A stretch of DNA of 64,000 nucleotides, taken from positions 62,001 to 126,000 of the forward strand of contig NZ_PGDQ01000007.1 of NCBI RefSeq assembly GCF_003073135.1. The letters run 5' to 3'. This document shows, piece after piece, positions 9,638 through 29,239 of this stretch. A model generated the notes under the pieces. The model was not told where the DNA came from, made no database searches, and saw nothing but the letters and a program-made list of their open reading frames with translations. Made by a program: the position numbers and the translations under genes. Numbering within the stretch: position 1 is the first letter of the stretch; every line of letters begins with the position of its first letter. The stretch is from Euzebya rosea. GTDB lineage: Bacteria; Actinomycetota; Nitriliruptoria; Euzebyales; Euzebyaceae.

Positions 9638-10867
9638 TCAGTCGGTCGGCTGGGCCACGGCGATGTCGTTGTCGCCGGCCCAGCGGCCGACGTCGTCGCG
9701 GTTGATCGCGGCGGCCATCATGTCGGCGAACAACTCGGGGGTGCAGGCGAACGCCGGCACCCCCAGCTCGGCCAGCGCCGCGGCGTTGTCGGCATCCCAC
9801 GAGGGCGTGCCGATGTCGGACAGCGCCAGCAGGGCGATGGCGGTCACCCCGGAGGTGACCAGCTGTCCGAAGCGGCGCAGCATCTCGGTGCGGACCCCGC
9901 CCTCGTGGAGGTCCGACACCAGCACGAACACGGTGTCGCTGGGTTGGTCGATCAGCTGCTGGCAGTAGGCGAGGGCGGCGTTGATGTCGGTGCCACCGCC
10001 CAGCTGGACGCCGAACAGCACGTCGACGGGGTCCTCGACGCGATCGGTCAGGTCGACCACCGTCGTGTCGAACACCACCAGGCGGACGTCGACCGCCGGC
10101 AGCGACGCGAGGATGGCACCGAACACCGAGGCGTAGACGATGCTGTCGGCCATCGAGCCGGACTGGTCGAGGCACAGCACGATGCGTCGGTCGATGTGGC
10201 TGCGCCGGCGTGCGTGGCCGACCAGCCGATGCGGGATGACGGTGCGGTACTCGGGCTGGTAGTGGGCCAGGTTCGCGGCGATCGTCGCCGGCCAGTCGAT
10301 GTCGCCGTGCCGGGGCCGGCGGGTACGGGTCGACCGGCTGATCGCCCCGCTCACGGCCTGTCGGGTGGTGGACTCCAGCCGGGCCACCAGGTCGTCGGTG
10401 ACCGCCCGCACGAGCAGGCGGGCAGCCTGCTTGGACCGGTCGGGGATGGCGCCGGACAGCCCCATCAGGGTGGTGACCATGTCCAGGTCGGGCTGGACGG
10501 CGTCGATCATCTCCGGCTCGACCAGCAGATCGGCGAGTCCCAGCCGTGTCATGGCGTCGCGCTGCATGACCTGCACCACGGTGGAGGGGAAGAAGGTCCG
10601 GATGTCCCCGAGCCACCTGGCGACCCGCGGTGAGGACCCACCGAGGCCGCCCTGCCGTCGGGTGTTGCTGCCGTACAGGGCCTCCAGCGCGCTGTCGCGC
10701 TGGATGTCGGGGCCGGCCAGGTCGACCCCGGTACCGTCGGCGCCGTCGTCGGACCCCAGCACCAGCCGCCAGCGCCGCAACCGGTCCTGGGCAGCCGGGT
10801 CGCCTGTGTCCCGGTCGTGCGTGGGCTGGTCGGGCGTGGGCTGGTCGGGCGTGTGGTCGGGGGTCAC
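9638..10867 (-). CDS. VWA-domain protein, partner of the MoxR ATPase
   Basis: The 409-residue product has a helical N-terminal half and a von Willebrand A domain from about residue 225. The MIDAS motif is intact: DQSGSM at 234-239, a GGGTDINAAL threonine loop, and SDLHEGG for the last metal-coordinating aspartate. In MoxR systems such as RavA-ViaA, CbbQ-CbbO and NorQ-NorD, the VWA partner binds a client through the MIDAS metal while the ATPase remodels it. GTG 10867 overlaps the stop of the DUF5682 gene by four bases (GTGA), so translation is probably coupled. It is the last gene of the five-gene operon. The Thr/Pro/Asp-rich first 20 residues contain a TPDQP repeat. Confidence 0.85.
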   Translation of the reverse strand: MTPDHTPDQPTPDQPTHDRDTGDPAAQDRLRRWRLVLGSDDGADGTGVDLAGPDIQRDSALEALYGSNTRRQGGLGGSSPRVARWLGDIRTFFPSTVVQVMQRDAMTRLGLADLLVEPEMIDAVQPDLDMVTTLMGLSGAIPDRSKQAARLLVRAVTDDLVARLESTTRQAVSGAISRSTRTRRPRHGDIDWPATIAANLAHYQPEYRTVIPHRLVGHARRRSHIDRRIVLCLDQSGSMADSIVYASVFGAILASLPAVDVRLVVFDTTVVDLTDRVEDPVDVLFGVQLGGGTDINAALAYCQQLIDQPSDTVFVLVSDLHEGGVRTEMLRRFGQLVTSGVTAIALLALSDIGTPSWDADNAAALAELGVPAFACTPELFADMMAAAINRDDVGRWAGDNDIAVAQPTD

Positions 10868-13053
10868 GTGGCGGCCCCGTAGAGCTCGAGCACTCGGCGG
10901 ATCGCCCGCGGTGCCACGTCGGGGTCGAGCGGTCGTTCCTCCGCCACACGGGTCGTGCCGTGTCGGACGCGCTGGCCGATGTGGTTGCGTTCGGTCGGCG
11001 TGTACCGCGAGAACGTGCGGCGCAGCAACGGCAGCAGGTCGTCGAAGACCTCGACGTCGACGGAGCTGATCCATCCGTCGAGCATGCCCAGCAGGGTCGG
11101 ATCCAGCAGCAGGAGCGCGGCGTCGCCGTCGAGGAACCCGTCGACCCACGAGGCCGCGTCGCGAGCGGGGCGGGCCGGCGACAGGGCACGCGAGACCCGC
11201 GCGGCCACGTCCTCGGCCGGGAGGTGCCCGCCGTCCAGCAGGTAGCGGACCGTGCGCCCGACGATGCCGTCGTGGACCCGGCGCCGGTCCACCAGCTTGG
11301 CGACCGCCTCGACCCACATGCCGGTCAGCGCGGGATGGTCGAGCATCCTGACGGCGGCGATCACCGCGTCGATGCCCCTGCGGGCCTGCAGGGCCGCGTC
11401 GTCGTCGAGCCCGACCACGGCGGTGGAGAGGCCGGCGCAGATCCGCCGGACCAAGCTGTCGAGCACGTCACGCAGCCGGCTGGTGTCGAGCTGGCGCACG
11501 TCGCCGTAGCGGCACACCCTGGCGAGGGGTTCGGTGGCGCGCATGAGGTGCAACGTGTCGTGGGTCGTGGCCGCCCGGCGGTCGACCTCCTCCACCAGGG
11601 CACCAGTCGCCTCGGGCAGGTCCGCGGGCAGGCATTCGTGCAGCAGGTCGACGACGTCGACGAGGTGCTCGGCGTTCCGTGCCCGTTCGACGGCCCGGAC
11701 GGTCGCGGCCTGCTCGACGGTGCCGCCGTGGACCGACGCGGCGATGACGGCCACGGCGAGCTCGGGCGTCCACTGCAGCGTCCAGCCCTCCTTGAAGGTT
11801 CCCGTCGTGCCGCCGGCGTCAGCGTGCCGACCCCAGCGGATGCCGAGCAGCAGGAGGCGGTGCAGCAGGATGGACTTGGCGGCACCAGCTGGTGTGCGCA
11901 GGTCACAGACGATCGTCTTCGCCTCCGCGGTCCGTCGCAGGCGGGCCGACCGGGCCGCGGCGTCCAGGTCCCTGGCGAGCGGGACCTGGGGGACCCCGTC
12001 GGGCACGCTCCCCATCTCGTGGCCGACCACGACCTCGTCGTGGATCACCTGCAGCGGTTCGGACCGTCCACCGCAGAGCACGGCCAGCGCCGCGTCGGTG
12101 CACTCCACGAGACCGGCGTGGGGACGGCCTCGCAGGGACGCGAGGCTGTTGGCCAGGCGCGCCGCTTCGATCGCCGAGGCGGTGGGGGCCGGAAGATCGG
12201 CGTCCCGCAGCGCACGCGCGACCTTGACCATCCAGCGTTCGACCCGCTGGTCGTCGTCGGTGGCGTAGCAGTGCGCGTACCAGCCCGGTGAGGTGACCCC
12301 TGCGCCGTACCCCGATCCCGCGGCCAGCCGTCCCGACGTCCACGGCACCCACGTCACGGCGACCTTCTGCCGACGGAGCCCCTTGAGCGTCGTGGTGTCG
12401 GCGGTCCTGGTCGGGAACCGGTCGGGGGTCAGCGCCGGCGCGTGGTAGGCCCCGCAGACCACGACGACCGGCCCCTCCCCGGACGCCATGACCTGGCGCA
12501 GCACCCGGCGCATGGCGGCCTCGCGGCGTCGCAGGTGCGGGTCGTCGGTGTGGCCGGCACGCATGGCGGCGATGGCCTCGGTGATGGCGGCGAACCCCTC
12601 CGCCGCGGTGTGGCGGTGTTCCACGGCGTCCTCCCACCAGCGCTCGGCGTCGGTGTACCCGGCGGCAGCGGCGAGCTGTCCGATGGGGTCGATCCACGTC
12701 TCGGGCTCGTCGTCGCGGTCGTAGCTGTCGGCCAGCTCGTGGGTTGCCGGCAGGTCGGCGAAGGAGACGGCCACGTCGTTGCGGACCGCCCAGCGCAGCG
12801 CGTTCCACTCCGGGCTGAACGTGGCCATCGGGTAGAACGACGACCGCGACGGCAGGTCCGGCCGGTAGACCAGGGCCGCGACCGGCGGGACCAGGTCCGC
12901 GTCCCCCGCCCACCCGACGATGCCGTCGAGCTCCGGTGGGCCCTCGATGACGACGTGCGCGGGTGCGACCTGCTCCAGCACGGTCAGGACCGACCGTGCC
13001 GAACCGGGCCCGTGGTGGCGGACGCCGCAGACGACGACGTCGTCGGTCGGCAC
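10864..13053 (-). CDS. DUF5682 family protein with TraB/EreA-like motifs
   Basis: A 729-residue cytoplasmic protein recognised as DUF5682. Motifs in its first 210 residues follow the TIKI/TraB/erythromycin-esterase pattern: GVRHHGPGS (10-18), VVIEGPPEL (34-42) with E37, REAAMRRVLRQV (177-188) and VVVVCGAYH (196-204). In that superfamily His and Glu residues at these places bind metal or catalyse hydrolysis, so DUF5682 may be a hydrolase; this is inference from spacing. The remaining 500 residues are helical and acidic with no recognised motif. The GTG start follows the MoxR stop directly (TAGGTG). It lies fourth in the operon, between the ATPase and the VWA gene. Confidence 0.8.
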   Translation of the reverse strand: MPTDDVVVCGVRHHGPGSARSVLTVLEQVAPAHVVIEGPPELDGIVGWAGDADLVPPVAALVYRPDLPSRSSFYPMATFSPEWNALRWAVRNDVAVSFADLPATHELADSYDRDDEPETWIDPIGQLAAAAGYTDAERWWEDAVEHRHTAAEGFAAITEAIAAMRAGHTDDPHLRRREAAMRRVLRQVMASGEGPVVVVCGAYHAPALTPDRFPTRTADTTTLKGLRRQKVAVTWVPWTSGRLAAGSGYGAGVTSPGWYAHCYATDDDQRVERWMVKVARALRDADLPAPTASAIEAARLANSLASLRGRPHAGLVECTDAALAVLCGGRSEPLQVIHDEVVVGHEMGSVPDGVPQVPLARDLDAAARSARLRRTAEAKTIVCDLRTPAGAAKSILLHRLLLLGIRWGRHADAGGTTGTFKEGWTLQWTPELAVAVIAASVHGGTVEQAATVRAVERARNAEHLVDVVDLLHECLPADLPEATGALVEEVDRRAATTHDTLHLMRATEPLARVCRYGDVRQLDTSRLRDVLDSLVRRICAGLSTAVVGLDDDAALQARRGIDAVIAAVRMLDHPALTGMWVEAVAKLVDRRRVHDGIVGRTVRYLLDGGHLPAEDVAARVSRALSPARPARDAASWVDGFLDGDAALLLLDPTLLGMLDGWISSVDVEVFDDLLPLLRRTFSRYTPTERNHIGQRVRHGTTRVAEERPLDPDVAPRAIRRVLELYGAAT

Positions 13054-14154
13054 CTAGCCCAGCTCCCGGCACGCGGCGTACAGGTCGTCCCAGCCGTCCC
13101 GGTCCCGGACCACGGTGTCGAGGTACTCCGTCCACACGATCGCGTCCTGGACAGGGTCCTTGACGACGGCCCCGCGGATCCCGCCGGCGATGTCAGCTGC
13201 CGAGACCCGGCCGTCACCGAAGTGGGCCGCGAGGGACAGCCCGTTGGTCATGACGCTGATCGCCTCTGCGGTCGACAGGGTCGAGGAGGGAGTCTTGACC
13301 GTCGCGCGACCATCGACGGTCCGTCCCTCCCGCAGCTCCTTGAAGATCGTCACGACCCGCTGGATCTGCGAAAGGGCGTCGAGGTCGGCCGGGAGGGCCA
13401 GTGACGCACCGAGGGAGGTGACACGGGCTCGCACGATGTCGACCTCCGCCTCCACGGTGTCGGGAAGCGGAAGGACGACGGTGTTGAACCGGCGACGGAG
13501 CGCGGAGGACAGGTCGTTGACGCCCTTGTCCCGGTCGTTCGCGGTGGCGATGACGTTGAATCCGGGGGCCGCCTGGACCTCGGTGTCGAGCTCGGGGATG
13601 GGCATCGACTTCTCCGACAGGATGGTGATGAGGGCGTCCTGCACGTCGGCCGGGATGCGCGTGAGCTCCTCGATGCGGCAGACGGATCCCTCCTGCATGG
13701 CCCGCATGACCGGCGAGGGGACCATCGCCTCCGCCGACGGTCCCTTGGCCAGCAACGAGGCGTAGTTCCAGCCGTAGCGGATCGCGTCCTCCGGCGTGCC
13801 GGCGGTGCCCTGCACGATCCGCGTCGACCGGCCCGAGATGGCCGCCGCCAGGTGCTCCGACACCCACGTCTTGGCCGTGCCGGGCACGCCGAGGAGCAGC
13901 AGGGCGCGATCGGTCGCGAGGGTGGCGATGGCCACCTCGACCAGGCGCCGCCGGCCGATGTACTTGGGTTCGATGGCGGTGCCGTCGGGCAGGGTGCCGC
14001 CGAGCAGGTAGAGGGCGACGGCCCACGGGGACAGCTGCCACGACGGCGGACGAGGCCGGTCGTCTGCTGCCGCGATGGCGGCCAGCTCGTCGGCGAAGGC
14101 GTCCTCGGCGTGCGCACGCTGGGCCGTCGGTGGCTGCGTGGGGCGGTCGGTCAT
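13054..14154 (-). CDS. MoxR-type AAA+ ATPase
   Basis: A 366-residue AAA+ protein of the MoxR branch. Walker A is GVPGTAKT at 89-96. The Walker B segment reads CRIEELTR (159-166), with Glu-Glu where most MoxR proteins have Asp-Glu. Sensor 1 is NVIATANDRD near 205 and the arginine finger region is SALRRRFN. MoxR ATPases use ATP to remodel or activate client enzymes together with a VWA protein, which is present two genes downstream. ATG 14154 overlaps the DUF5691 stop (ATGA). The Walker B change is conservative and is worth checking in homologues before assuming altered hydrolysis. Confidence 0.9.
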   Translation of the reverse strand: MTDRPTQPPTAQRAHAEDAFADELAAIAAADDRPRPPSWQLSPWAVALYLLGGTLPDGTAIEPKYIGRRRLVEVAIATLATDRALLLLGVPGTAKTWVSEHLAAAISGRSTRIVQGTAGTPEDAIRYGWNYASLLAKGPSAEAMVPSPVMRAMQEGSVCRIEELTRIPADVQDALITILSEKSMPIPELDTEVQAAPGFNVIATANDRDKGVNDLSSALRRRFNTVVLPLPDTVEAEVDIVRARVTSLGASLALPADLDALSQIQRVVTIFKELREGRTVDGRATVKTPSSTLSTAEAISVMTNGLSLAAHFGDGRVSAADIAGGIRGAVVKDPVQDAIVWTEYLDTVVRDRDGWDDLYAACRELG

Positions 14155-15656
14155 CTGGCGTCTCCGGTCGGGATCGTGTCTGGAGTGGTTGCGTGGGGTT
14201 CCGCGGTCGCCGTTCGGTCCGACGTCATCGTGTCGATGGCCCGGTGCAACGAACGGCTGAGCCGGATGCGGTCGATGGCGGACGCCACCATCCGGGCGTG
14301 GGGGCCGGAGGGCCTGGCCGTGGCGAGGCGGTCGTCCAGCGTGGGGCCGGCGCGCGTGACCAGCAGGGTGGCCATGGTCCCCAGCGCCGTCCCCGGTCGG
14401 GGGTGGGTCGCACACCAGCTGACGACCTCGTCGGTCAGCGCCGCCGGCCACGGCCCGGCGACGAGCGCGAGGAGGTCCCGTAGCCCCTCCATCCACCGAT
14501 CGCCGCCGGGCGGCAGGACCGATCCGGGGGGCAGGGGCGCCTCGTGGGTCGCGAGCAGCAACGGGCGGAGGCGATCGGCGAAGGTGTCGTCCCGCTGGTC
14601 GGCGGCCGCGCGAGCCGCCGCGAGCAGCAGCAGCGGGTGGTCACCGAGGACCGCGACGGCCCCGTCGAGTGATCCGACGACGCCTTCCCACGCCCGACGG
14701 GGCGCGGCCGACAGCACCTGGGCATGCCACCAGGCCGTCAGCCCGACAGGAGGGGGTGCTGCCGTCGCATCGGTGAGGTCGGCGGCCGTCGGCCTGACGT
14801 CGACGATGGCCACCGTGTCGGTCCGCAGCCGACGCCGCTCGACCCGCAGCATGCCGGGGAGGCGGTCGGCCATGCGGTCGGCTCGGCGGCTGCCGGGCAG
14901 GGTGGCGAGGGCCCGTGCGGCGGCGTGGCGAACCCGCGGCGTCTCGTCACCGAGGGCCGCCTCGAGCCACGCCTCGTCGTCGGGGCCGACAAGGTGATCG
15001 ACGGCCTCGAGCACGTCGGTGCGCACGGCCGCTGGCCAGTGGCCCCATCGCTGCGACACGATCGCGTGGCCGCGGTCGGGGGCGGCCGACCAGAGGCGGG
15101 TGGCCGCCACGCGGCGCTGGCGTCCTCCGATCGCCAGCTGCTCCTCCGCGGTGGCGACATCGATCAGGGCGTCGGCCCAGCGGCTCCGGCCCAGCGACGC
15201 CAACCAGCGGCCCTGCCGGCCGACGGCGGCGACCGCCTCGGCGGGAACCGGGCGCGGTACCTCGTCGAGCACGTCGGTGAGGTGGTGGCTGGCGATGCGC
15301 CAGCCGGCGCTCGCCGCCTCCGCCAACCAGCGGGTCAGCAGTGCCCCCCGGTCGGGACCGGCCACCAGGCCGGACAGGATCGCGTCGAGCAGCTCGAGCG
15401 CCGGGCCGGGGGCCACGGTGAGGGACTCCTCGGTCGGGGCCGCCCACCGCGGGTCGACGGATCCGACCGGCTGCGGCCGCAGGCTCGTCCGGCGGGCGGC
15501 CCACGCGGCCGCTGCGGTCCGCAGGAGCCGATCCTCGACCGTGCCGTCGACGGGCAGGTCGAGGCCGACGAGCGTCCGCCGGGGCAGGTCCCCACGACGA
15601 CCGGTGCCGAGCGTGGCATGGGCCACCAGGTCGTTCCACCGCCAGTCCTCGGTCAT
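14151..15656 (-). CDS. DUF5691 family protein, HEAT-like
   Basis: A 501-residue helical protein recognised as DUF5691 by its company and by the opening MTEDWRWNDLVAHATLGTGRR. Residues about 229-256 (ALGDETPRVRHAAARAL) are a clear HEAT repeat, and the rest is predicted helix with many Trp and Arg. HEAT arrays are protein-binding scaffolds, so it may recruit clients to the ATPase; that is inference. Both ends are in translational overlap: its start overlaps the SWIM gene stop (ATGA) and its stop overlaps the MoxR start. No catalytic residues are visible. Confidence 0.75.
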   Translation of the reverse strand: MTEDWRWNDLVAHATLGTGRRGDLPRRTLVGLDLPVDGTVEDRLLRTAAAAWAARRTSLRPQPVGSVDPRWAAPTEESLTVAPGPALELLDAILSGLVAGPDRGALLTRWLAEAASAGWRIASHHLTDVLDEVPRPVPAEAVAAVGRQGRWLASLGRSRWADALIDVATAEEQLAIGGRQRRVAATRLWSAAPDRGHAIVSQRWGHWPAAVRTDVLEAVDHLVGPDDEAWLEAALGDETPRVRHAAARALATLPGSRRADRMADRLPGMLRVERRRLRTDTVAIVDVRPTAADLTDATAAPPPVGLTAWWHAQVLSAAPRRAWEGVVGSLDGAVAVLGDHPLLLLAAARAAADQRDDTFADRLRPLLLATHEAPLPPGSVLPPGGDRWMEGLRDLLALVAGPWPAALTDEVVSWCATHPRPGTALGTMATLLVTRAGPTLDDRLATARPSGPHARMVASAIDRIRLSRSLHRAIDTMTSDRTATAEPHATTPDTIPTGDAR

Positions 15657-17002
15657 GCCGTTCGGTCCTGCCAGCGAGCGGTGTCCTGCAGGACCGGGAC
15701 GGCGAGCAGCCGTCCGTCGATGGCGACGGTCAGCGGTCGGAAGGCGTCGTGGAGCACCTCGCCGAACATGGTCGCGGGGCGCCCGCCGGTGATGGCGAGC
15801 GTGGCCCACGGGTCCAGCCCGACCGCGGGCAGCGCACCGCCGGCCCGGTCGACGACGCGTGGGCTGTCGGCGTCGGCGTCCACCAGCCGGACACCCGCGA
15901 CCGTGCACGGGAACCGGTCCTGCCACGGCGCATCGGCGGCCAGGTCCGCGACGGACCGAAGTGCGGCAGCCCAGCCCTCCTCCGACACCGGCAGCTCGTC
16001 GGCTTCGCCGACCGTCACCGGGTCGTCGGCGAACCGGACCCGCCGGGGTGGCCGTCCGGGGTACATCGCCATCTCGACCTCGAGGATGCTGCCGAGCAGC
16101 TGCGGTGTGGGCGGGGTGGCGGTACCGCCCGCGAAGTCGAGGAGGATGACGTGGCCCTCGACGGGATGGTGCAGCCACGTGCGCTGCTCCACCACCCGGC
16201 CGGTGTCGGAGGTGCCGATGCCGAGGACCGTCCACTCCCCCGCCAGGCGCTCGCCGTCGAGCACCTCGGCGGTCGGTCGTGCCCACCCGAGGAACGTGCG
16301 GAGGTCCGCAGCGTCGGCCTGCGGCAGATCGCCCCGCCGTTCCCATGCGGCCACGGTGAGGTGGAGCCGCCCCAGCTCGGAGAGGAGGACCGACGCCCAG
16401 TCGTCCCGTCCGGCGATCGTCGTCGGCAACGCCCGCACACGGTCGGCAAGGCCCGGTAGCTGGGCATCGACGAGGCGGGCACCGACGAGGTCCCACCAGG
16501 CGTGGGGCCTGGACCGGGTGGCGGCCAGCCCGTCGACGATGACGTCATCCAACCACTGGCGCAGCTCCACCATGCCGCCGTCCATGAGGGCCAGCCGCTT
16601 GGCGACGCGCCGGGCCCGGGCCTCGGGGTCGACGGGTGCCCGTCGGTCCTCGGTGACCGCCCGGGACGCCCGTTGCCGGGCGGCGGCCAGCACGTCCTCG
16701 GGGGCGTCGGTGGTGCTGCCGAACCCGTCGACGTCGGCCAGCCAGACCAGCAACAACGACAGCCCGTGCTTGCACGGCTGCTTCCGTGACGGGCACGTGC
16801 ACGTCACGGAAGGCCCCGACAGGTCGACGCTCACCCGGTACGGCGTCGCGCCCGAGCCCTGGCATCGGCCCCAGAGCAGCTGGTCGAGCCGTCCGAGGCC
16901 CGACCACGCAGCCGACCGAGCCAGCTTCTTCGCGGCCGCGAAGGAGCTGGCATCGGGTGCGTAGTCCCGCACCCGTTGGGGTCCCCATCGCTCGTCGACC
17001 AT
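15653..17002 (-). CDS. SWIM zinc-finger protein, first gene of the MoxR/VWA operon
   Basis: The 449-residue product carries a SWIM zinc finger, CTCPSRKQPCKH at residues 68-79 (C68, C70, C77, H79), fitting the CxCx(n)CxH pattern. SWIM domains bind DNA or proteins. The N-terminus has a Lys/Ala-rich helix (FAAAKKLARSAAW) and the sequence after the finger is Trp-rich and mixed alpha/beta without further motifs I can name. It leads the operon: 59 bases separate it from the previous gene on the strand, and its stop overlaps the DUF5691 start. The promoter should therefore lie upstream of 17002, where I see no convincing -35/-10 pair. Confidence 0.85.
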   Translation of the reverse strand: MVDERWGPQRVRDYAPDASSFAAAKKLARSAAWSGLGRLDQLLWGRCQGSGATPYRVSVDLSGPSVTCTCPSRKQPCKHGLSLLLVWLADVDGFGSTTDAPEDVLAAARQRASRAVTEDRRAPVDPEARARRVAKRLALMDGGMVELRQWLDDVIVDGLAATRSRPHAWWDLVGARLVDAQLPGLADRVRALPTTIAGRDDWASVLLSELGRLHLTVAAWERRGDLPQADAADLRTFLGWARPTAEVLDGERLAGEWTVLGIGTSDTGRVVEQRTWLHHPVEGHVILLDFAGGTATPPTPQLLGSILEVEMAMYPGRPPRRVRFADDPVTVGEADELPVSEEGWAAALRSVADLAADAPWQDRFPCTVAGVRLVDADADSPRVVDRAGGALPAVGLDPWATLAITGGRPATMFGEVLHDAFRPLTVAIDGRLLAVPVLQDTARWQDRTA

Positions 17003-17047
17003 CGACGAGCGATCCTACGGTTCCCCTGCGACACCGCTCCGAGCCGG

Positions 17048-17061: not shown

Positions 17062-18807
17062 TCAGCCGCCCGTGATCACCTCGATGGACGACACGACGTC
17101 GTTGTCGATGAACGACAGGTCGCCGAGGACCACCCGGCTGGGCGGCGTGGTGAGGCCCGAGTCGATGAGGTACTGCTCGGTCTCCGCCGGCAGGCTGCTG
17201 GTCCGCACCCCGAGCTGCGGGCCGTCGATGGCTGCGGCGAGCGGGGCTGCGGCGAGGGCGAGGGTCCAGGCGTCGGCCCGGTCGAGGTTGACGAAGACGA
17301 AGTCCTCGCCGGATGCCGGGATGTCGGGCCACAGGTCCTCGGCGATGGCCACGGCGGTGTCCATCCGGTTGATCCCCGCGACCCGCTGGGGGTTGGGGAC
17401 GACCGCTTCGACGGCCGGGCCGACAACACCCTCCCCGCCGACGAGGACGGTGCGGTCGGGAGCCGCCTGGTCGATGATGCGGGCAGCTGCGGGATGCAGC
17501 GTGCCGGTGTCGGTGAGGACGAGGAGGGCGCCCGCACGGGCGTGGACCCATGCCCCGGCGGTGATGGCATCCGGCCAGTTCAGGCCGTACCCGACCACGA
17601 CGTCACGCGGCGGCAGGCCCTCCTGGATCAGGTCGAAGATCGTTTCCTGGGCGACGGCTTCCGCGGTCTCGAAGCGAGTGGGTCCGAACAGGCGCCGGGT
17701 CTCGTAGCCCGCCGTGTCCAGCTCGTCCTGGACGGCCACCGACACCGCGTTGGTCCCTCCGAGCAGGTAGACGACCCCGTCGCCACCGAGCGCCCGGTCG
17801 ACGGCCGCCCTGGTCCGGGGGTCGAGGTCGGCGTCGGGACCGCCGTCGGTGAAGAGGATGCACTGCACGAACGGCAGCTGTGACCCGGCGAGGGCGTCGG
17901 CGAAGTCGTCGTTGCGGGCGATCGCCACCTGGGTCCCGGTCCCGTCGGGGACGAGGAACTCACACACCTGGTTGGCGACGTCCTCGGCGTCACCGGCGCT
18001 GCTCCCCGGCAGCCGGCTGGTGCCCGGTTCACCGGGGCTGGGGGTCGGCGTCGGCGTCGGCGTCGGACTCGGCGGGGTGTCCTGCTGGGCGAACCCGGAG
18101 TAGCGGGCGTTCGGCTGGGAGTAGTTGTAGAACCCGAACCTGCCGGCGGGGAACGTGCCGTCGACGGCCATCACCAGCTGGTCGTCCAGCCGCAGCTCGA
18201 ACCGGGTGGAGGTGTAGGTCAGCTCGAAGGCGTACTCGGTGTTGTCCTCCCAGCCACCGTCGGGGTCCCATGCGGTGGCCAGGACCTCGTAGCGCGGATC
18301 GTCGTTGACCTGCTCCTGGCACCAGAAGGTGTCGAGCACGAAGTCGCTGCCGTCGCCGCGTTCGTCGGGCTGCTCCAGGAGGCGCCCGTCGACTCGGGCG
18401 AGGGTGAACCCCGCCCGTGCGGTGCAGCCGCCGAAGCCGGACTGGTCGGCCTGCTTCCAGCTCAGCACCAGGAAGTCGTAGTCGTGCTCGTCGGCGAGGG
18501 TCGGGCCGGTGTAGCCCAGGACGAAGCCCACGTAGTCGTCGTCGCTGGTCGTCTCCACCTCGAACGTCCCGCTGATGGTGGCGTCGATGACGCTGTCAGG
18601 GGAGACGAAGAAGAACGGGTCGGCGTTGGTCCGCTGGACGACCTCCAGCCCATCGGCGGAGACCTCCCAGTCGCCATCGGGTCCGAGGGGCTCCCACTGG
18701 CGGAGGTCGAAGTCGATCGGGCCCGGCTGGGCCGTGGCGGGAAGCCCGACCAGCAACGGCAGGCAGAGGACGGCAAGGACGGCGGTGAGTACGCGGGGTG
18801 AGTTCAT
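17062..18807 (-). CDS. Secreted thrombospondin-C-like lectin domain fused to cell-wall-binding repeats
   Basis: A 581-residue exported protein with a signal peptide ending near residue 26 (PATAQ). Residues about 30-245 resemble the thrombospondin C-terminal (L-type lectin-like) domain: DDDYVGFVLGY, FLVLSWKQ, and FGFYNYSQPNARYSGF near its end. A Pro-Thr linker (TPTPTPTPSP) follows. Three CW_binding_2 repeats complete the protein (LPFVQCILFTDGG/VVYLLGGTNAVS, GPTRFETA, VLVGGEGVVG). TSP-C domains bind cell-surface ligands in animals; in bacteria they are found in adhesin-like exported proteins. A wall-anchored adhesin or glycan-binding protein is the best guess. There is a second CW_binding_2 protein at 959, unrelated in its N-terminal part. 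Confidence 0.8.
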   Translation of the reverse strand: MNSPRVLTAVLAVLCLPLLVGLPATAQPGPIDFDLRQWEPLGPDGDWEVSADGLEVVQRTNADPFFFVSPDSVIDATISGTFEVETTSDDDYVGFVLGYTGPTLADEHDYDFLVLSWKQADQSGFGGCTARAGFTLARVDGRLLEQPDERGDGSDFVLDTFWCQEQVNDDPRYEVLATAWDPDGGWEDNTEYAFELTYTSTRFELRLDDQLVMAVDGTFPAGRFGFYNYSQPNARYSGFAQQDTPPSPTPTPTPTPSPGEPGTSRLPGSSAGDAEDVANQVCEFLVPDGTGTQVAIARNDDFADALAGSQLPFVQCILFTDGGPDADLDPRTRAAVDRALGGDGVVYLLGGTNAVSVAVQDELDTAGYETRRLFGPTRFETAEAVAQETIFDLIQEGLPPRDVVVGYGLNWPDAITAGAWVHARAGALLVLTDTGTLHPAAARIIDQAAPDRTVLVGGEGVVGPAVEAVVPNPQRVAGINRMDTAVAIAEDLWPDIPASGEDFVFVNLDRADAWTLALAAAPLAAAIDGPQLGVRTSSLPAETEQYLIDSGLTTPPSRVVLGDLSFIDNDVVSSIEVITGG

Positions 18808-28482: not shown

Positions 28483-28564
28483 CGCCGGGCCCACGTCGGC
28501 CGGGTCGCCGCCGTGCCCCATCACCGCCCGGACGATGTCGCAGGCAGGCTGTAGCGTTCCCCGA

Positions 28565-29239
28565 ATGGTCAAGGCCGTTCGGGGACTCCGACTCCACCTC
28601 GCGAGGGCGTTCGACGAGCTGGAGCACCGCGCCGAGCGGACCGGTCCGCTCGCCCGATACACCGTCGACGTCTGGCAGCCCCGAGCCCCCATACCCCCGG
28701 ACTGGTGGCCCTGGTGGCCGCCCGTCGGCGTGACCGCCCTCGGCGGTCCCGTGGCCCTGCAGGCCGGCTGGGCGCTCGGCACGGCCTGTGCCCGGGCCGC
28801 CCGAGGCGGGCCCGTGCTCCTGGTGGTCCCCGTGGCCATGCAGCGCTGGGTCACCGACATCCTGCTGGCCCACGCCGGCGTGCCGCTTCACCTCATCGGG
28901 GCCGGGGCGCTGCAGCTCGACCAGTGGCAGCGGATCTCGCGTCGTCTCGGCGTCCTCGCCGACGCGCCGATCAGCATGATGGACCCCGCGGAGGAACCCC
29001 CCGATCGGTACCTCCCCGACACCGTCACCGTCGGGTTCTGCATGACCGACGAGCAGCTCGCCACGGCCGCCGCCCTCGGCCGCGACGCGAGCGTCCGCAC
29101 CGTGCACGTCGGCGGGTGGGCTGACCACGGCAGTGCGCTCCGCCTCGAGGTTCGGGGCGAGGACGGGGTCGGCATCGAGGGGGTCCGTCGCAGCCTCGGG
29201 TTCGACTGGCCCACCCTCCAGGTGGTCGCCCCTGACTGA
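28565..29239 (+). CDS. Degenerate DnaB-like RecA-fold protein without Walker A
   Basis: The 224-residue product aligns by eye with the start of the DnaB helicase C-terminal domain. Residues 105-139 (VPLHLIGAGALQLDQWQRI then LGVLADAPISMMD) track the DnaB stretch in which a helix and LxxGxLxxxDWxRL are followed by LxxAPLYIDD. The upstream P-loop position (about 54-70) reads VGVTALGGPVALQAG and has no GKT, and the DnaB FSLEMS motif is VVPVAMQ. ATP binding is therefore probably lost. Such partial DnaB-like proteins may be regulators or partners. ATG 28565 is used. No neighbour relates to replication. The assignment is by pattern, not search. Confidence 0.55.
   Translation: MVKAVRGLRLHLARAFDELEHRAERTGPLARYTVDVWQPRAPIPPDWWPWWPPVGVTALGGPVALQAGWALGTACARAARGGPVLLVVPVAMQRWVTDILLAHAGVPLHLIGAGALQLDQWQRISRRLGVLADAPISMMDPAEEPPDRYLPDTVTVGFCMTDEQLATAAALGRDASVRTVHVGGWADHGSALRLEVRGEDGVGIEGVRRSLGFDWPTLQVVAPD

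Follow-up and report, generated by a model that had tools for sequence, protein, structure and literature searches.

A five-gene operon built around a MoxR ATPase

What does a MoxR ATPase with a VWA partner act upon when its operon has no obvious client enzyme at its side? This question is raised by five genes on the reverse strand of a 64,000-nucleotide stretch of the Euzebya rosea genome, the whole of which is hereafter called the window. In the order of reading, they encode a SWIM zinc-finger protein (449 aa; 15653..17002, −), the HEAT-like scaffold protein DUF5691 (501 aa; 14151..15656, −), a MoxR AAA+ ATPase (366 aa; 13054..14154, −), a DUF5682 protein (729 aa; 10864..13053, −) with a predicted TraB/TIKI-like N-terminal domain followed by a helical-repeat region, and a CoxE-type VWA protein (409 aa; 9638..10867, −). 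An initial sequence-only reading had described them as a single unit of touching or overlapping genes; open reading frames, coordinates, strand and the junctions (ATGA, ATGA, TAG/GTG and GTGA) are all as it claimed, and its family assignments, including the HEAT-like DUF5691, hold in Pfam (SWIM, E 3.6e-5; DUF5691, 1.6e-41; AAA_5, 4.4e-41; DUF5682, 1.1e-229; VWA_CoxE, 4e-52). Among the neighboring genes in the window, neither a client gene nor a cofactor enzyme adjoins the operon, as had also been noted; the flanking genes code for unrelated housekeeping or envelope functions (threonine synthase, an MFS protein, a Castor/Pollux-like channel and a CWB2 protein). Scans for sigma-70 promoters and terminators gave no match. 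The neighboring reading frame at 17062-18807 (−) combines CWB2 repeats with a thrombospondin C-terminal-like domain.

The hallmarks of the proposed MoxR-VWA engine are both present. The MoxR protein possesses a conserved Walker A motif (GVPGTAKT, residues 89-96; 13867..13890, −), and the MIDAS of the VWA protein is complete and conserved at every residue, consisting of the DxSxS motif (D234, S236, S238; 10154..10168, −), T293 (9989-9991, −) and D319 (9911-9913, −). The acidic pair of Walker B is E162-E163 (13666..13671, −) instead of D-E; this E-E form is conserved and shared by this MoxR group, YehL of Escherichia coli included. At least 97% of 73 sequences retain the metal-binding motif CxCx6CxH of the SWIM protein (C68, C70, C77, H79; 16766..16801, −). 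Midasin and NorQ are the closest solved structures to the window MoxR protein. In NorQD, a finger of the VWA protein enters the pore of the ring and is twisted upon ATP hydrolysis (PMC13036017). The window operon shares with NorQ-NorD and CbbQ-CbbO the pairing of an AAA_5 ATPase and a VWA protein that bears a MIDAS, but differs from them through the addition of DUF5682, SWIM and DUF5691 proteins, a damage-type promoter (see below) and the lack of an adjacent client enzyme.

A relative of the E. coli yeh operon

Homology marks the five genes as relatives, across phyla, of the yehLMPQ operon of E. coli, itself unsolved. The yehL-yehM-yehP-yehQ operon of strain MG1655 contains the same MoxR-DUF5682-VWA core as the window, and all three proteins are full-length homologues: the MoxR protein is 40% identical to YehL over 362 aa (E 2e-73), DUF5682 is 26% identical to YehM, and the VWA protein is 37% identical to YehP. 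Judging by full-length similarity and the linked DUF5682 and VWA genes, the window MoxR protein probably belongs to YehL, which is among the seven MoxR subfamilies that have been named (PMC3893208). The description of the system as undescribed in the sequence-only reading is too strong because of these homologues and the naming of the subfamily; its statement that no experimental role has been reported remains valid, as no published function of a YehL-type set was found in the open-access literature, outside of which most subscription journals lie. A SWIM protein is encoded in both operons, but YehQ lacks DUF5691 and has no BLAST similarity to the window SWIM protein. The E. coli operon also has a different gene order and adjoining DUF4132 genes where the window has DUF5691; conversely, neither a DUF4132 gene nor a YehQ-like SWIM gene lies beside the core in the window. 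The E. coli set is dispensable for growth since strain DGF-298 lacks yehI to yehQ (PMC10652928).

Four layouts can be distinguished when homologues are marked at more distant DUF5682 loci. In type A, the layout of the window, SWIM and DUF5691 accompany the core. Type B loci, found in E. coli and on an Agrobacterium plasmid, carry the core with one to three DUF4132 genes and usually a YehQ-type SWIM gene; one of them (L186) has three DUF4132-like reading frames in tandem. Type C consists of a MoxR gene beside a DUF5682-VWA fusion, which at two loci (L197, L198) is a single polypeptide and represents a minimal version of the system, while type D comprises VWA-MoxR-DUF5682 alone, with neither SWIM-DUF5691 nor DUF4132 and a YehQ-type SWIM detected. 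Judged from these homologies, MoxR-DUF5682-VWA is the constant core and the remainder is exchangeable; DUF5691 may thus fill the role in type A that DUF4132 has in type B. Eight type A loci encode SWIM and DUF5691 as a fusion, verified by Pfam in one of them, and these natural fusions, together with those of DUF5682 and VWA, suggest physical contacts between the partners. A decaying copy is present on plasmid pOB3b3 of Methylosinus trichosporium (L169), where the VWA gene is broken up into three frames amid transposases.

Conservation and inheritance of the gene set

An alignment-based scan of bacterial and archaeal genomes for DUF5682 yielded at least 588 loci, of which the best 80 were retained, a set that favours the window's variant because the ranking was by similarity to the window's own DUF5682. 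The order SWIM-DUF5691-MoxR-DUF5682-VWA on one strand is kept exactly in 67 of these 80 best of at least 588 loci, far above chance expectation, and the 67 loci belong to five phyla (Actinomycetota, Bacteroidota, Cyanobacteriota, Planctomycetota and Pseudomonadota), which bears out the statement in the sequence-only reading that the set recurs in other bacteria. Several of the exceptions are contig ends, and four Streptomycetaceae loci possess all five genes in a divergent arrangement, with SWIM-DUF5691 facing away from MoxR-DUF5682-VWA. No sixth gene is common to the 80 best loci; an apparent sixth family that overlaps the VWA gene at 15 loci was judged to be the antisense of that gene. The two DUF families also co-occur across the window's phylum: of its 396 genomes analysed, 23 encode DUF5682 and 20 have a strong DUF5691 match (E < 1e-15), and all 20 are among the 23, with both genes close by on the same contig. 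Seven genomes taken from other loci have exactly one DUF5691 copy each.

Among the five proteins, pairwise distances are correlated at 0.80-0.92. A tree built from four concatenated proteins resolves Bacteroidota and Cyanobacteriota as monophyletic; it also unites the 49 actinobacterial sequences and the window in a single clade, within which the window belongs to a subgroup of 12 that are mostly micrococcal and nocardioid. Two congeneric genomes lack the five-gene set; therefore, loss or lateral gain has occurred.

DUF5682 as the putative enzyme

The sequence-only reading had noticed hydrolase-like motifs in DUF5682, and these contain strictly conserved positions. Motif I (G10-x-R-H13-H14; 13012..13026, −), motif II (E37 in VIEGP; 12943..12945, −), the pair R177-E178 on the helix preceding motif III (12520..12525, −) and motif III itself (G201-x-x-H204; 12442..12453, −) all lie in the N-terminal domain, and none of the 99 sequences compared, which include YehM and representatives of types B to D, deviates at H13, E37, R177 or H204; R177-E178 and motif III are invariant as well, while G10 is replaced by proline in 7 of the 99 sequences. 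The likeness to TraB/TIKI proteins was predicted from the motifs GxRH, IEGP, RE..M and GxxH ahead of any fold search. This superfamily, to which Ere enzymes also belong, is marked by two GxxH motifs, a Glu after strand 2 and an Arg on the helix preceding the second GxxH, a set that is present and conserved in DUF5682; TIKI enzymes use two His, acidic residues and one basic residue (PMC6254334).

Profile comparison points in the same direction, and structure prediction does so in part. The alignment of DUF5682 with TraB reached a profile score of 33.1, while 200 column shuffles averaged 12.3 and never exceeded 20.3; the match is confined to the C-terminal motif, with R177 to H204 aligned. PF01963 has too few sequences in the window's phylum to be of use. 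The full-length model (pLDDT 91) shows a helical-repeat C-terminal region, and a fold search with it returned helical-repeat proteins only, which is why the N-domain (residues 1-252; 12298..13053, −) was folded alone (pLDDT 90). In the viral fold library, its sole match at E <= 0.001 was a member of the TraB family (E 3.9e-4, probability 1.00). The PDB fold library gave no significant match, with the Ere-family structure 2rad at rank 10 (E 1.3), and PDB sequence searches with DUF5682 and with the SWIM protein gave none at all. In its motifs and profile, and less certainly in its predicted fold, the DUF5682 N-domain thus resembles TraB/TIKI hydrolases, and DUF5682 is therefore probably the enzyme of the system. 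It differs from the known TraB/TIKI/Ere hydrolases in adding a long helical-repeat region and in being tied to a MoxR-VWA motor.

A promoter of the DNA-damage type

The LexA-independent DNA-damage response of mycobacteria (PafBC/RecA-NDp) operates from the consensus tTGTCRgtg-8nt-TannnT (PMC5656591). When the regions upstream of SWIM were scanned for damage-related motifs, TTGTCAGTG was found five times against 0.29 expected, and all five matches are full consensus sites, correctly oriented and directly ahead of the start codon; the same regions were not enriched in sites of the LexA, DdrO or E. coli LexA type. The full motif is present in all eleven further genomes of one genus, which is presumably Streptomyces because of the divergent layout, and here the 9-mer also precedes the divergent MoxR gene. 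Altogether, 15 Streptomycetaceae loci have the exact PafBC consensus ahead of SWIM, a further one (L088) has it with one mismatch, and the motif also precedes the operon in a Nocardiopsis locus (L109). At a relaxed motif score of at least 10, it occurs in 23 of 50 actinobacterial type A loci, which are related and hence not an independent count, against 29 of 2000 random segments. Two Streptomycetaceae genomes contain just 22 and 23 full sites genome-wide (0 in the reversed control), and the genes downstream, where checked, include recA, uvrA, uvrB, a radA-like gene and those for 6-O-methylguanine methyltransferase, a DEAD helicase and ribosomal protein S6.

The same full motif stands directly ahead of DUF4132 in two type B operons. 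A DUF4132 gene of Deinococcus is induced upon DdrO depletion, and molR has been described as a gene of the LexA regulon (PMC8533742); a search of the yeh region of E. coli gave no LexA core CTGT-N8-ACAG.

The window's genome departs from the PafBC regulon in that it has 0 matches to the exact consensus and a variant in its place. Its operon is preceded by CGGTGTCGCAG-N8-TAGGAT (17012..17036, −), 9 nt ahead of the SWIM ATG. Across the genome, the form TGTCGCAG-N8-TANNNT that this site provides has five matches (reversed control, 0); other sites lie ahead of ligA, an XPB-like helicase and one unknown gene, with the ATG 7-9 bases past TANNNT. Both recA genes (L220, L221) have CGATGTCACAC-N8 at the matching position, and the first of them has an additional upstream LexA-like box, GAACGATTGTTC. 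A further site, ahead of the lhr helicase gene, was found by chance in an unrelated locus of this genome. The joint form CGATGTCRCAS-N8-YANNNT thus stands ahead of the two recA genes, ligA, lhr, the XPB-like helicase and the window operon; it matches twice in the window against 0.03 expected, and once in 1.64 Mb of other genomes. We regard it as probably the genus's form of a DNA-damage promoter, for which the computational case is strong; it was, however, partly fitted to the window operon and recA, with the lhr and ligA sites outside its definition.

A proposed damage-induced remodelling machine and its alternatives

As its control sequences resemble those of DNA-repair genes, the operon is probably active upon DNA damage. 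On computational grounds, we consider it fairly probable that its products form a YehL-type machine that remodels proteins at the expense of ATP and is induced by DNA damage. By analogy with NorQ-NorD, the MoxR protein would form a hexamer whose pore is plugged by the VWA protein, with a partner bound via the MIDAS. This motor may act on or through DUF5682 and activate or steer its putative hydrolase domain towards a peptide or ester bond, or it might use DUF5682 for the remodelling of a client, while SWIM-DUF5691 would recognize the target, which is probably a protein associated with DNA or its repair. A damage-type promoter is by itself no proof of a repair role; the most likely role, as far as the genes and their control sites indicate, is that a target is remodelled or hydrolysed under genotoxic stress. 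A more specific version, in which proteins stuck on damaged DNA are stripped or cleaved by an AAA+ and protease pair in the manner of eukaryotic p97 and SPRTN, with MoxR-VWA pulling, SWIM-DUF5691 locating the site and the TraB/TIKI-like domain cutting, appears improbable to us.

The operon might, as a somewhat unlikely alternative, encode a chaperone that inserts a metal or cofactor, as NorQD or CoxDE do, and so matures a repair or redox enzyme, with DUF5682 as a scaffold instead of a hydrolase. VWA_CoxE as the best VWA family, NorQ among the closest solved relatives of MoxR and the naming of the adjoining E. coli gene molR for a molybdate phenotype are in keeping with this; however, there is neither a cofactor enzyme close by nor a shared sixth gene, His and Glu residues of DUF5682 are invariant, and the molybdate genes of Deinococcus were unchanged while the DUF4132 gene was induced (PMC8533742). 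We regard as doubtful, too, that the promoter is incidental to a general stress chaperone with a mainly respiratory or envelope-related client. The other E. coli MoxR-VWA pair, RavA-ViaA, does interact with respiratory complexes (PMC3893208), but the rarity of the motif in Streptomyces genomes, its placement at core repair genes and its recurrence at operons of the DUF4132 type argue against a coincidence.

The sequence-only reading had envisaged a role in stress or conflict, and the promoter speaks for the former. Phage defence or another conflict role, in which DUF5682 would be the effector of a relative of the vWA-MoxR-VMAP ternary systems, is disfavoured and in our view very unlikely, even though MoxR and VWA components are common to both, the window MoxR protein weakly matches bpMoxR, some copies are plasmid-borne and the set is missing from the two congeneric genomes. 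The bpMoxR match stays just under the cut-off (26.4 vs 27), Pfam finds no VMAP among the five genes, and the operon does not sit in variable defence contexts. PADLOC models gave no match except for weak generic TRIP13/IetA AAA scores, one phage record was found and viral contigs contain no relatives, the major phyla are largely monophyletic in the tree, and of 5426 E. coli genomes, 5287 carry yehLMP, nearly always on the chromosome; the DNA-repair-type promoter likewise argues against such a role.

What is new here is the constant core with exchangeable adaptors, the likeness of DUF5682 to TraB/TIKI proteins and the DNA-damage-type promoter. A set whose ATPase occurs in 97% of E. coli genomes, and whose named subfamily is one for which we found no published role, now has a likely condition (genotoxic stress), candidate enzyme residues (H13, E37 and H204 of DUF5682) and a core-versus-adaptor layout. 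That the PafBC motif is clear in the Streptomycetaceae analysed, both ahead of this operon and at repair genes, also bears on the doubt raised for S. venezuelae, in which an initial search reported the motif as seemingly not conserved (PMC9380542).

Further genes preceded by damage-type promoter motifs

In two presumed Streptomyces genomes, PafBC-type motifs precede genes for a HAD hydrolase, a DUF2797 protein and a DUF4253 protein (L234, L236, L253), which are candidate members of the damage regulon. In the window, the damage-type motif of the operon also occurs at 28533-28557 (+), ahead of a gene at 28568-29239 (+); its product, a 223-aa protein that has no match in Pfam or NCBIfam, is a candidate for a new DNA-damage gene.
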